Source: Soonwooa buanensis (lineage in GTDB: Bacteria > Bacteroidota > Bacteroidia > Flavobacteriales > Weeksellaceae). From it: 64,000 nt of DNA. The translations under genes and the position numbers were made by a program. Where the stretch lies: contig NZ_FUYZ01000002.1 in assembly GCF_900167905.1 (NCBI RefSeq), positions 186,001 to 250,000 of the forward strand. The letters run 5' to 3'. This document shows, in pieces, positions 37,332-41,701 of this stretch; position 1 is the stretch's first letter, and every line of letters begins with the position of its first letter. Below the pieces are notes generated by a model. That model did not search any database. It saw only the letters and a list, made by a program, of their open reading frames with translations, and had not been told where the DNA came from.

Positions 37332-38300
37332 TTAATTTGACACTTTATACTTTGAAAAAATGAATTGATAATTTTTGATTGTTCTAAAAAAAATAAATGC
37401 TCTTTAATTTGCATTAGTTTATATTAATATCTTGCGTCTGCTAGAAAAATATAAAATAATATTTCTTCACTTGCCTCAGCAAATAACATAACAAACATTA
37501 TAGTCAGCAGCCAACGCTACGGAGATTGCTTCCACCTGCCTGTTCTGAGTCTGTCGAAGGGCTACAGCAACTACCATCATATTGTGCCTATAATGTGGGG
37601 TTATGTTAAATGCTTCCCTAGTAACGGGCATAGCCCTTTTGCGCCTAGGCTTTGCCAACGCTTTTCTCCCAACCCACCCATTTTATAGGATGCACAAAAA
37701 AGATGCAGATAGAGTAGTCTTTTGCCAATCGTTACAGTCGCTTCTTGCGAGAAACTATTTTATAGATAATAAAAAAATAGTTCACGCAATCAGCCACTGT
37801 GCCTGTGCTGAGCCTGCCGAAGTACTCACGCGCATAGCAGTATTCATTCATTCCTATAGGAGCTTATGCCAACGCTTTGTTTCAATCCCAATTCAAAAAT
37901 ACGCTAGTTTCATAGGCAAATAGTTTCAGTGTATTTTTTCATCGGCCTTTACAATATCCAACAAAGCTCCTTCCGTCAATTAGTCATACAGCTATCTTTT
38001 CCAACGCTCATCATATTTAGTTCTTGTATCTAGATGCTCGGTTCTTGAATCTTTTCTCAAGCATCTTTTTTGTGCGAGCTTATCTACCCATTTTTACCAG
38101 AGATTCCCAAAGCTAAATCCAAGCTTCTCCAGTTCCTTCACAATAGGTATATGCAAGCATATCCCTACCAATACGTCACCGCATGCAGGAGTATATCGCC
38201 AAAGCAAATTTCAACTGCCATATACACCTGCCTTTTCCATTGCTCACCGTTCTTTGCCAAGCATCTTCCCACACCTTTTAATTATCGTTTACCCTAGAAT
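37332..38300. other. Repeat-rich region without a credible gene
   Basis: About 1 kb with higher GC than the surroundings. Open frames (for example 37603-37923, 106 codons) are compositionally odd, rich in Cys, His and Ala, and carry translated dispersed repeats (CACAEPAEV), so they are treated as chance. Two copies of the GAGCCTGCCGAAG-type repeat occur (37543-37560 as TCTGAGTCTGTCGAAGGG and 37808-37825 as GCTGAGCCTGCCGAAGTA). A 125-base palindrome lies at 37484-37608. The stretch looks like an accumulation point of dispersed repeats. Confidence 0.6.
37484..37608. repeat. 125-bp attC-like imperfect palindrome
   Basis: Left arm TAACATAAC-AAA-CATTATAG (37484-37503) pairs perfectly with right arm CTATAATG-TGGG-GTTATGTTA (37588-37608), leaving unequal 3- and 4-base spacers in the arms and an 84-base centre. 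Two box pairs with an asymmetric spacer and a long variable centre recall integron attC sites. The outer box GTTATGT fits GTTRRRY except at one position. No integron integrase is in the window. Confidence 0.6.
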
Positions 38301-38376
38301 ATTAGTTTTTTTAGCATAATCATAAGAAGAAATGGAAGCCGAACTTCGGCCAAAAAATAAAAAAAGAAAAAAAGAT

Positions 38377-38507
38377 AGGGGGCTTCCTAATCCAGCCGCT
38401 ATATTGTGTAAAGGTCAAGCCCTACGGGTTTTTGCAAAAAGATTTTTGCATCTAAAATATATGCAAAAACTTTTAGCAAAAAACCTTGACACAATGCCAC
38501 GCCCCCT
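38377..38507. repeat. Nested palindrome before the DUF6943 gene
   Basis: Four pairs of arms are nested: AGGGGGC (38377-38383) with GCCCCCT (38501-38507), ATTGTGT (38403-38409) with ACACAAT (38489-38495), TTTTGC (38430-38435) with GCAAAA (38476-38481), and TTTTTGCAT (38443-38451) with ATGCAAAAA (38461-38469) around a 9-base loop. The order and spacing allow one long folded structure of about 130 bases. It could be an origin for strand processing (oriT, single-strand origin) or a structured RNA leader. Confidence 0.7.
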
Positions 38508-38604
38508 TACAAGAGGGCTTTCTTTTTTTCTTTTTTTTTCGGTTTTTTTCTTCGTTTTCTTTTGAAAAATTTTCGGCGCAGCATAAAATTTTAAATCTCA
38601 AGCC

Positions 38605-39030
38605 ATGACAAATTTTAAAGTACGTACGTACAATTCTGAAAAAGAAACGCCCGAAAATGCTCTATTTATCCTTTCAAGAGGACACAACGCAGGAAAACCA
38701 TTGTTTGAACCTTGCCCCAACTGTTTTATCCTGTATTGCAACGACCAAGAAGAACGCGAAAACCTGTACTGGACATTTTTTACACTTTGGAAAAATGGCT
38801 TTTTTCATCCTTATTTATGCGGAAGTGTGATTGAAATGCTTCGTTTGTTTGAACTTAAGAAAATTATACAAAATTTCATCATTCCTAGTCTTAAGAAGAT
38901 GGAGCAGAACGCCAAAATCCTTTTCGACATCAAAGCCGTTTATCAGTTAGAACAAAAGTTTACTGAGCAACTCAAGCAGCTTTCCGAACTTCGTTCTGTT
39001 CTAGTGCGAAAGTATTATTTTCAAATCTAA
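38605..39030 (+). CDS. DUF6943-like protein of mobile elements
   Basis: A 141-residue soluble protein beginning TNFKVRTYNSEKETPENALF, then FILSRGHNAGKPLFEPCPNC and FILYCNDQEERENLYWTFFT, LWKNGFFHPYLCGSVIEMLR. This pattern is recognised as the DUF6943 family, frequent in Bacteroidota conjugative elements. Two cysteines (CPNC) could bind metal. The C-terminal third is a charged coiled helix. A long nested palindrome lies about 100 bases upstream and a clear terminator follows, so it is a single-gene unit. Function unknown. Confidence 0.7.
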   Translation: MTNFKVRTYNSEKETPENALFILSRGHNAGKPLFEPCPNCFILYCNDQEERENLYWTFFTLWKNGFFHPYLCGSVIEMLRLFELKKIIQNFIIPSLKKMEQNAKILFDIKAVYQLEQKFTEQLKQLSELRSVLVRKYYFQI

Positions 39031-39064
39031 TAAGATTTAAGAATTCAGTATTTAAAACAAAATA

Positions 39065-39095
39065 TAGCCTCTCAAAATTCTGAGAGGCTATTTTG
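39065..39095 (+). terminator. Terminator after the DUF6943 gene
   Basis: TAGCCTCTCA, loop AAATTC, TGAGAGGCTA, then TTTTG. A 10-bp perfect stem 35 bases after the stop codon. The pairing also allows use by the converging operon on the other strand. Confidence 0.85.
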
Positions 39096-39114: not shown

Positions 39115-39300
39115 TTAGAACTTGTTTTTTAATAATTTAATAAGAAATTTTAGTAATAATGTCATCAAAAAACTGGAAGCACCTCCTAATCCTGCGAGTA
39201 AAATGGTTTTGATCAGGTCTTCGGTTTGTATATTGACAAATATCGTTAGTAGAGTACCAAATGCTGTACTTAGTTTAGTCGAATTATCTAAATAATTCAT
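39115..39300 (-). CDS. Small membrane protein of the DUF5675 operon
   Basis: A 61-residue protein with two hydrophobic helices (LSTAFGTLLTIFVNI, about 10-24, and IKTILLAGLGGASSFLMTLL, about 30-49) and a basic C-terminus (KFLIKLLKNKF). Size and topology resemble small phage holins. It is the last gene of a four-gene minus-strand operon, 31 bases after the 70-residue gene. The holin comparison rests on topology only. Confidence 0.65.
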   Translation of the reverse strand: MNYLDNSTKLSTAFGTLLTIFVNIQTEDLIKTILLAGLGGASSFLMTLLLKFLIKLLKNKF

Positions 39301-39331
39301 CGATAGTTGATGTTAATTCTAGGAACGAATT

Positions 39332-39544
39332 TTAATCATCCCTATAAACTGCTGTTTGACTGATCGCGGATGCGATTCCTCCAGCAACCGCAATATATCC
39401 AGCTATTGTTATTACAATTGCTGGCAGCGAAACGGGAGCTGTCGCAATAACACTTCCTACAGCTGTAAGCACTAAACCTAAATTTCTTATTGTTTTAAAG
39501 AATTTTGGAGTAGGCTCCTGCATTCTTTCCATTACTTTTTTCAT
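39332..39544 (-). CDS. Small membrane protein of the DUF5675 operon
   Basis: A 70-residue protein with a basic N-terminus (KKVMERMQEPTPKFFKTIRN), followed by two glycine- and alanine-rich membrane helices (LGLVLTAVGSVIATAPVSL and IVITIAGYIAVAGGIASAI). Its ATG overlaps the DUF5675 stop by four bases (ATGA), so the two are translated together. Helices of this kind occur in holin-like and pore-forming peptides. No other function can be read from it. Confidence 0.7.
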   Translation of the reverse strand: MKKVMERMQEPTPKFFKTIRNLGLVLTAVGSVIATAPVSLPAIVITIAGYIAVAGGIASAISQTAVYRDD

Positions 39545-39945
39545 GTCGTTGATTTTTTAATTGTTAGATTAATTACAAAGCCTTTTTCTAGATATGGAAA
39601 AAGTATATTTTTCAATCGCTCAAAGGCAATCCGTGAACGGATTCCTTTTCCTTCTCCAGTCAGCTCCGAAACTGGAGCAATGCAACCATTTAATTCCTTC
39701 AAAGCATTATTGGCAGGATGAAAGAGAATTAAATCTCTGTTTTTTACATTCCGTACTTCTAAATGCCATTTGAATTTTGGACTAAAACGCTTTTTAACTC
39801 GATACAAACCTTCTGGAATACATGAAATTCTTCTTTGGTTATTTTTCCAAGCTAATTCAATCGTCTTGCAGATCTCTTTGTCCTCAAAGTATAAAGTCCC
39901 ATTAGTGCCTGATACATGATATTGACGTTCTAAAACTAATTTCAT
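39541..39945 (-). CDS. DUF5675 family protein
   Basis: A 134-residue protein (start ATG 39943-39945 preferred over a TTG at 39961, because it begins MKLVLERQYHVSGTNG as the family does). Typical segments are TIELAWKNNQRRISCIPEGL, YRVKKRFSPKFKWHLEVRNV and FHPANNALKELNGCIAP. The last holds H76 and C88 in an H...GCI arrangement that recalls the L,D-transpeptidase HG...HGC site, an inference that would make it a cell-wall enzyme. No signal peptide is seen. It is followed with overlap by two small membrane proteins, as a lytic or export module would be. Confidence 0.8.
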   Translation of the reverse strand: MKLVLERQYHVSGTNGTLYFEDKEICKTIELAWKNNQRRISCIPEGLYRVKKRFSPKFKWHLEVRNVKNRDLILFHPANNALKELNGCIAPVSELTGEGKGIRSRIAFERLKNILFPYLEKGFVINLTIKKSTT

Positions 39946-39955
39946 AATTAGAGCA

Positions 39956-40708
39956 TTAAACAACTACATCAATGATCTTTAAAGCATTAAAAGCTCCGTT
40001 TTTTAACGAATATTTTTCACCATTCACTTCTTGAAAGAACTCAATGCCTAAAGCTAAAAATAGAGGGTGTGTCGACAATTCGGGTAGCACAAGAGGAATG
40101 TCAATTGCAGCAGTTAAGGTATTGTCCCAAGGTAAAATGATACTTTCTCCAATGGGAGCAACATAAACTTCCGCTTCGAAATCAATATCCATTGCAGCTG
40201 CAGTCAATTTAAAATGAGTTGTACCCCCAGGAGCGGCAATCATTTTCGCTGGAACGAACGGATCAAAATTTACACCTGCTTCACCTGTAGGTCGATCCAA
40301 TGTTTTATTCCACGGAGCATAAACAGTGTTTCCTAATTTTCCATTAGCATTGAAATCGAAATTCATAAGAAGTTCCGCTTCACCATCAATAACATTTCTG
40401 AGTCCTCTAGGATTAACAGCATCTAGTTTGATAACTTCGACCATCTTTTTTGTCAAACGACTTACCATTCGACTATCATTGATGTTCTGAAGTAATTGAC
40501 GTATAGAATTTCGTAGAACTTTTCCAGCTTTACCTGCACGCCCAAACTCTGCATTGTTTTCTCGCGTTCTTTGGAAAGCGGGATCATTGCGGATTCTTTC
40601 AGCAGATACGCCTCCTTTTTCTCGGGCTAAATAGCCTTCCTTAGACTTGTAAAAAGTGATGCCTCCAATAGTACCATCCAGTTTTACAATACTTTTTTGT
40701 CTTGCCAT
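39956..40708 (-). CDS. Unknown 250-residue protein, first gene of the DUF5675 operon
   Basis: A 250-residue protein. The N-terminal third is basic and well patterned (ARQKSIVKLDGTIGGITFYK, EGYLAREKGGVSAERIRNDP, FQRTRENNAEFGRAGKAGKV), with positively charged helices up to about residue 95. The rest is rich in beta strands and hydrophobic residues (MIAAPGGTTHFKLTAAAMDI, ESIILPWDNTLTAAIDIPLV). It has no signal peptide. Similar proteins occur in multiple copies near DUF5675 genes in flavobacteria, as far as can be recalled. A DNA- or wall-binding base with a C-terminal effector-like part is possible; function unknown. Confidence 0.75.
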   Translation of the reverse strand: MARQKSIVKLDGTIGGITFYKSKEGYLAREKGGVSAERIRNDPAFQRTRENNAEFGRAGKAGKVLRNSIRQLLQNINDSRMVSRLTKKMVEVIKLDAVNPRGLRNVIDGEAELLMNFDFNANGKLGNTVYAPWNKTLDRPTGEAGVNFDPFVPAKMIAAPGGTTHFKLTAAAMDIDFEAEVYVAPIGESIILPWDNTLTAAIDIPLVLPELSTHPLFLALGIEFFQEVNGEKYSLKNGAFNALKIIDVVV

Positions 40709-41038
40709 TGTAATAAGATTTAAGATTAATACGCATTTAATTACACTTCAATCTTAGGCTGTTGCAACATGATTTAGATTGATTTGAAGACAAATGTTGC
40801 ATTATATAAAGTAAATTCAAAGAGAGCGCTATACCGTATGTCCTAATGTGAATACTTTGTCCATAACAATATCAAATGATCACTCCCAAAAAGACATAAC
40901 TTGCATGTAGTTAAGTTATAAGTACGTCTAATCCCATTTAAGTTTAACCTATGAAATCGCCACGACCAAAATTATTGTACAAACAAACACCTAAGTAGAG
41001 TGTGATAACATATGGTACTAAAAAATAAGCATCTACAT
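40709..41038. other. Divergent intergenic region
   Basis: About 330 bases between the DUF5675 operon and the small DNA-binding gene. A short inverted repeat, ATAACTT with AAGTTAT, lies at about 40904-40921. No gene or paired promoter boxes were recognised. Confidence 0.5.
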
Positions 41039-41242
41039 ATGAAAAAGGATCTGACTAGAATATGCATATATGCTAAAGACATCCAGCGGATAACAGGGAA
41101 GAGTTACCGACAAAGTACACGGCTAGTCCATAAAATAAAAGCAGAACTGAACAAACAACCCAGTGAATATCTAACTATTGAAGAGTTTTGCGCTTATACT
41201 GGCATTAAGTATGAGCAATTAGCACACCTTATTATTGGATAG
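41039..41242 (+). CDS. Small DNA-binding protein at the element end
   Basis: A 67-residue protein starting at the ATG 41039 (an upstream ATG at 41012 adds nine residues that do not look conserved). It has two helix-turn-helix-like halves: IYAKDIQRITGKSYRQSTRL VHKIK and YLTIEEFCAYTGIKYEQLAH. The pattern of a kinked first helix and basic recognition helix is that of small regulators or directionality factors found near the ends of Bacteroidota elements. The gene ends 87 bases before the outward promoter at 41329. Confidence 0.7.
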   Translation: MKKDLTRICIYAKDIQRITGKSYRQSTRLVHKIKAELNKQPSEYLTIEEFCAYTGIKYEQLAHLIIG

Positions 41243-41519: not shown

Positions 41520-41593
41520 GATCCGGTAGTTCAGCTGGTTAGAATGCCGCCCTGTCACGGCGGAGGTCGCGGGTTCGAGTCCCGTCCGGATCG
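41520..41593 (+). tRNA. tRNA-Asp (GTC), copy 2
   Basis: Identical in all 74 bases to copy 1, with anticodon GTC and no encoded CCA. It begins 28 bases after the attR core; the short AT spacer is nearly the same as that before copy 3, a mark of tandem duplication. Confidence 0.97.
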
Positions 41594-41626
41594 CAAAAAG
41601 TTTTATCAATTACTTTTCAAAAAATT

Positions 41627-41700
41627 GATCCGGTAGTTCAGCTGGTTAGAATGCCGCCCTGTCACGGCGGAGGTCGCGGGTTCGAGTCCCGTCCGGATCG
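41627..41700 (+). tRNA. tRNA-Asp (GTC), copy 3
   Basis: Identical to the other two copies. It is the last of the tandem set and is followed directly by a strong terminator. Confidence 0.97.
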
Positions 41701-41701
41701 C

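Follow-up and report, generated by a model that had tools for sequence, protein, structure and literature searches.

Folded DNA sites at the ends of mobile elements are a known kind of structure, and several described systems can be compared with the locus presented here. In the attP(+) region of CTXphi, attP1 and attP2 are inverted dif-like sites lying about 90 bases apart (PMC3089051), and the Bacteroidetes microvirus proviruses (BMV) have been proposed as users of dif-like sites that carry no recombinase of their own (PMC3091885). Integron attC sites, intrinsic bidirectional terminators, and HsdS subunits together with the single-TRD Esub1 each share features with some part of our locus. 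For the particular hairpin that we describe, and for its link to a gene encoding a DUF6943 protein, we found no description, and a literature search for DUF6943 found no paper.

The window, by which we mean the whole 64 kb stretch of DNA that was analysed, contains a region of about 1.1 kb with no recognised gene that holds at least four covarying hairpins (A, B, C, and D), of which hairpin D is the last. Conservation at the nucleotide level begins at about 37470/37473, and the flanks beyond that point vary between loci. The original prediction concerned hairpin D; the palindrome stands, but it is one member of an array. The features are as follows.

37473 to 38560, no strand assigned: hairpin-array region without a recognised gene, running from where the conserved unit begins on the left up to the pyrimidine tract
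37484 to 37503, minus strand: dif-like site 1 (inverted), CTATAA-TGTTTG-TTATGTTA, found with a pattern derived from the host dif
37485 to 37610, no strand assigned: hairpin A, in which the two dif-like sites pair together in a layout like that of CTXphi attP(+)
37587 to 37611, plus strand: dif-like site 2, CCTATAA-TGTGGGG-TTATGTTAAAT, both arms identical to those of the host dif
38144 to 38167, no strand assigned: hairpin B, a variable stem between the conserved linkers AGTTCCTTCA and GTCACCGC, with compensatory replacement
38185 to 38231, no strand assigned: hairpin C, GCAGG-A-GTATAT ... ATATAC-A-CCTGC, with compensatory replacement
38352 to 38373, no strand assigned: purine (A-rich) tract, an outer arm complementary to 38519-38548 and kept in homologues
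38377 to 38507, no strand assigned: hairpin D, a nested forked palindrome (arm pairs, fold, covariation)
38378 to 38383 and 38501 to 38506: arm pair 1 of hairpin D (outermost), GGGGGC and GCCCCC
38403 to 38409 and 38489 to 38495: arm pair 2, ATTGTGT and ACACAAT
38411 to 38415 and 38483 to 38487: arm pair 3, AAGGT and ACCTT
Inside these: arm pair 4, the long inner arm, TTTTTGCAAAAAGATTTTTGCA and TGCAAAAACTTTTAGCAAAAA
38419 to 38429, no strand assigned: side mini-hairpin GCCC-TAC-GGGT on the 5' arm of hairpin D (on the 3' arm in class 3)
38519 to 38548, no strand assigned: pyrimidine tract, an outer arm complementary to 38352-38373 that contains the CTTTCTTT-type tract
38605 to 39030, plus strand: DUF6943 protein, 141 aa, with an HsdS-TRD-like prediction (PF22105, 1.9e-46)
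39064 to 39091, called as a terminator on both strands: compact inverted repeat between DUF6943 and the convergent h61
39115 to 40708, minus strand: neighbouring convergent module of h61, h70 (small hydrophobic), a DUF5675 protein and p250 (250 aa)
41012 to 41242, plus strand: p76, a small HTH/Xis-like protein with weak excisionase-type matches only, its position kept in many loci

The four nested arm pairs noted ahead of the DUF6943 gene are all present within 38377-38507, in the correct order and with their positions right. The palindrome forms the central part of a conserved hairpin whose 5' arm is broken by a small side hairpin, which makes the structure forked instead of a simple stem. 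Outside these limits, the A-rich and pyrimidine tracts frame the structure. Its predicted fold has an energy of −44.9 kcal/mol, compared with −30.3 ± 3.7 kcal/mol for dinucleotide shuffles (z = −3.9; 0 of 200 shuffles folded as well), and in this minimum-energy fold the GGGGGC/GCCCCC pair is left unpaired despite its complementarity. The pairing is also kept among relatives: 98.6% of 1029 cells pair in 21 class-2 homologues, in which 12 pairs have changed on both sides (57 cells). When partners are slid by 1-3 columns as a control, the double-changed pairs drop to 1-3. Hairpins B and C behave similarly, in that their stem sequences are swapped between homologues with pairing retained.

Hairpin A heads the array and is the part that compares with CTXphi attP(+). 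Its two inverted dif-like sites are 64-108 bases apart (about 90 in CTXphi), have unequal centres, and form a forked stem, and the CCTATAA and TTATGTTAAAT arms of site 2 match those of the host dif exactly. Each site is the only match to its pattern in the window, with 0 mismatches; 0.07 matches were expected for site 1, which has a 6-nt centre, and 0.03 for site 2, which has a 7-nt centre. A dif pattern with full arms and a 6-nt centre has no match in the window, the centre at the right arm being 7 nt. Among distinct cells of the stem, 172 of 176 are Watson-Crick and 0 are G-U, and compensatory changes keep the stem. The sequence CCTATAATTTATATTATGTTAAAT is the expected host dif, a putative XerCD site, and occurs at ≤1 mismatch in 271 of 296 family genomes and 0 times in a reversed control, with one copy per genome among the matches listed. 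In contrast to CTXphi, Xer integration at chromosomal dif was not seen for these elements: the listed positions of dif and DUF6943 are >100 kb apart in the five genomes G032, G079, G163, G169, and G238, and no element lies near dif in the genomes for which both positions are listed. A further difference is that none of the genes examined was recognisable as filamentous-phage, and hairpin D has no dif-like motif. The likeness to BMV extends to the phylum, the dif-like sites, and the lack of an own recombinase, but the surroundings of the hairpins examined yielded no recognisable microvirus gene.

The AlphaFold model of the DUF6943 protein has a pLDDT of 87, and its structure matches are moderate (Foldseek best E 0.011; VIA Z 7-8 over 128-134 residues), the top ones all being type I S subunits, Esub1, or related enzymes; the sequence match to Methylase_S is weak (E 0.022). 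The model suggests a stand-alone half-HsdS, with one TRD and a long helix, and hence a protein that would recognise DNA. This predicted architecture is what it has in common with HsdS and the single-TRD Esub1; it differs from HsdS in being a single short domain with no HsdM partner seen nearby and with only the weak sequence match. The phage and plasmid collections contained no match to DUF6943, and 26 viral-collection contigs (L148-L173) encode distant relatives. The h61/h70/DUF5675/p250 module is a conserved neighbour of DUF6943 in most family loci. The p250 family (window 39956-40708) occurs in 193 of the 296 family genomes and is widespread without DUF6943; in many genomes of one genus the first ~130 residues alone match, and the C-terminal part seems to have been exchanged. 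We rejected p250 as a capsid protein after structure searches gave no clear fold, and as a requirement for the hairpin because it is far more widespread than the hairpin is. No match to p250 was found in phages, and comparing the window module with PHROGs turned up neither a capsid nor a Rep protein.

DUF6943 was searched for in 296 genomes of the same family (Weeksellaceae), 44 of which contain it (39 above the cut-off), with at most 4 matches per genome. The same forked hairpin lies upstream of the gene in nearly all of the approximately 40 Weeksellaceae loci that we read, and in a second genome collection the close relatives come from Chryseobacterium, Kaistella, Cloacibacterium, Epilithonimonas, and related Weeksellaceae. 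Records of Mesonia, Polaribacter, Tenacibaculum, Winogradskyella, Brumimicrobium, and Chitinophagaceae contain more distant DUF6943 genes. Outside the Weeksellaceae, a CTTTCTTT tract lies 68-116 bases upstream of DUF6943 at most loci, and similar nested hairpins are present upstream of the gene in those distant loci whose sequence was read; the hairpins of marine Flavobacteriaceae have folding z-scores of only about −2 to −3. Related hairpins precede DUF6943 in other Flavobacteriia and the wider Bacteroidota, a phylum-wide link. The tie between palindrome and gene, which had been part of the original prediction, is not exclusive: the hairpin is conserved upstream of the gene, but a covariance model of hairpin D matches in 71 of the 296 family genomes, and many copies, including some at island ends, occur without DUF6943. 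At L100, L104, L105, and L108, such copies lie beside p250 modules. Five loci (L073, L074, L075, L070, and L071) have a divergent DUF6943 without the hairpin, downstream of a small gene that looks SymE-like by eye. In L096, L099, and L102, p250 modules that lack DUF6943 have a different nested hairpin, e.g., AAATGAAGATTTCTTC ... GAAGAAATCTTCATTT, at a distance of about 250-370 bases from h61; it may represent a further class of such sites.

From the covariance-model matches, 20 stretches were fetched and 10 annotated by ORF lists. In most annotated loci, the last cargo gene is co-oriented and about 60-470 bases separate it from the hairpin after it, and several copies adjoin islands with phage-defence genes; the cargo that we identified includes a TOTE-system primase-helicase, a PDC-M62A/B pair, and a KAP/PifA-like NTPase. 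Several related copies share a conserved downstream segment that stops close to a CCTCACTCTCCGC-type sequence, 411-477 bases from the start of the hairpin; this sequence is a candidate attR by its likeness to tRNA 3' ends. No tRNA-flanked attL was found in the fetched stretches, and in an empty-site search of one other genome in the genus, the element was absent at that gene, where divergence blurs the exact ends. Tandem tRNA-Asp genes adjoin the unit in the window (41520-41594 and 41627-41701), and the homologous loci L042, L054, and L062 have an extra tRNA-Asp 3'-end fragment (GTCCCGTCCGGATCGCA) on the same side, an att-like trace.

This position 3' of cargo genes, together with conserved asymmetries and a proposed folding as a single strand, recalls integron attC sites. 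Hairpin D, however, lacks GTTRRRY/RYYYAAC cores, hairpin A on inspection has no consistent core, and true attC-like arrays sit separately nearby. Such attC-like repeats with GTTRRRY-like ends occur at L037:9537-9748, L038:9935-11992, L051:9848-10793, and L040:1005-2776. The cassette-array-like repeats at L084:3710-4792 lead to a tyrosine-recombinase-like ORF beside an ssb-like gene (both by eye), an arrangement that resembles a sedentary chromosomal integron within the Weeksellaceae. Two 9 kb copies, L037 and L038 (G032:C1, about 445000-454000 and 532356-541421), are identical over 9065 bases, contain a CBASS-type defence operon (by eye) and the hairpin-DUF6943 unit, and diverge where cassette-like repeats begin; the identity reflects either a recent duplication or an assembly effect.

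The way in which the pairs change bears on whether hairpin D is maintained as DNA or as RNA. Departures from the commonest pair comprise 90 double changes, 5 G-U, and 13 A-C in class 2 (32 sequences) and 24 double changes, 16 G-U, and 12 A-C in class 1 (17 sequences), which together give 21 G-U versus 25 A-C, whereas family-matched RNase P RNA treated alike gave 266 double changes, 114 G-U, and 7 A-C. The contrast in G-U to A-C between hairpins and RNase P RNA has p about 2e-11 by Fisher's test, the cells not being independent of one another. Class 3, with only 7 related sequences, has 11 G-U versus 5 A-C and is not decisive. An RNA would give wobble on one strand only, and here neither strand is favoured, as would be expected for DNA-like pairing; a symmetric folding count for a bottom-strand RNA reading of the A-C excess was too noisy. 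In the seven class 3 loci, moreover, the polarity of the hairpin is reversed: its side hairpin sits on the 3' arm, although the flanks keep their order. The scarcity of G-U, its match by A-C, and the occurrence of the side hairpin on either arm according to class favour pairing in DNA over RNA, and from these substitution patterns the pairing looks to be maintained in DNA. If the hairpin were a structured regulatory RNA or a 5' leader of DUF6943, as the original prediction had also allowed, this would suit its strong RNA fold and its constant position, with about 70-115 bases from tract to start. The G-U intermediates that mark compensatory pairing in a structured RNA are few in classes 1 and 2 and balanced by A-C, however, and the copies without DUF6943, the reversed polarity of class 3, and the lack of any Rfam match to 38377-38507 up to E = 10 also speak against it, so that we consider an RNA function very unlikely. 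A fold without function has to be weighed against the same data. Template-switch repair of quasi-palindromes perfects palindromes and yields compensatory changes without wobble intermediates, so the balance of G-U and A-C could stem in part from this process with no selection, which weakens the reading of the hairpin as functional DNA. Such repair would be expected to erase asymmetries, but the asymmetric side hairpin, unequal bulges, and linker sequences are kept across families, and this conservation disfavours a purely neutral origin to the point that we regard it as highly improbable.

Two further explanations give the hairpin a function. A bidirectional terminator or insulator at the island edge would stop transcription both ways between cargo and chromosome, its strong hairpin being preceded by an A tract and followed by a T-rich one as in intrinsic bidirectional terminators; that order is present here, a terminator-like site is called at 38504-38517, and the location right after the last, co-oriented cargo gene in most annotated loci fits such an element. 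We nevertheless think it unlikely, since a hairpin of about 150 nt with a forked shape and conserved single-stranded bases is more than termination requires, the two tracts lie at a distance from the strong stem and are paired together, the hairpin is also directly upstream of DUF6943, and the locus already has another, compact bidirectional terminator at 39064-39091. A terminator also acts as RNA, in which G-U should be tolerated, and wobble is low here. The hairpin could alternatively be an oriT or single-strand origin on which a helper relaxase or a replication protein acts in trans, which would fit the mobile context, the DNA-level hairpins, and the lack of a recognised relaxase in the annotated stretches (ORF lists read). 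Against this, no nic-like conserved motif or nick site was identified in the hairpin, and class 3 has its polarity reversed within an unchanged flanking order; an origin in this strict sense seems distinctly unlikely. The broader class to which it belongs, that of sites for transfer or single-strand processes acting as DNA, is nonetheless reasonable for a conserved palindrome that is tied to DUF6943 and lies in a mobile context with no relaxase recognised in the stretches read.

We favour, at a probability of roughly 45%, the reading that hairpin D is a forked DNA hairpin working in cis in the life cycle of integrative genomic islands. The low-wobble conservation of pairing, the repeated occurrence at island ends, the inverted dif-like sites at the head of the array, and the link with DUF6943 together point to a cis-acting folded-DNA mobility site, probably one that controls the movement of defence-gene islands. 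The hairpin would act as a folded single strand or an extruded cruciform, perhaps bound by DUF6943, and might be used at stages of replication, excision, or transfer in which the island DNA is a single strand. At hairpin A, the dif-like half-sites could anneal on single-stranded element DNA to form a XerC/XerD substrate, as in CTX phage attP(+). A more ambitious extension, which we hold to be doubtful, is that this is a new Bacteroidota mobility system in which a stand-alone HsdS-type DUF6943 recognises the forked hairpin and so allows defence islands to replicate, transfer, or exchange their cargo, with a folded Xer site in some classes and with DUF6943-less islands using the hairpin in trans.

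The comparison of G-U with A-C against a family RNase P RNA control is a cheap means of separating DNA hairpins from RNA hairpins in genome scans. Many defence islands have no obvious transfer apparatus, and if hairpin D is what we propose, it would provide a handle on how islands move between Bacteroidota and a testable role for DUF6943.
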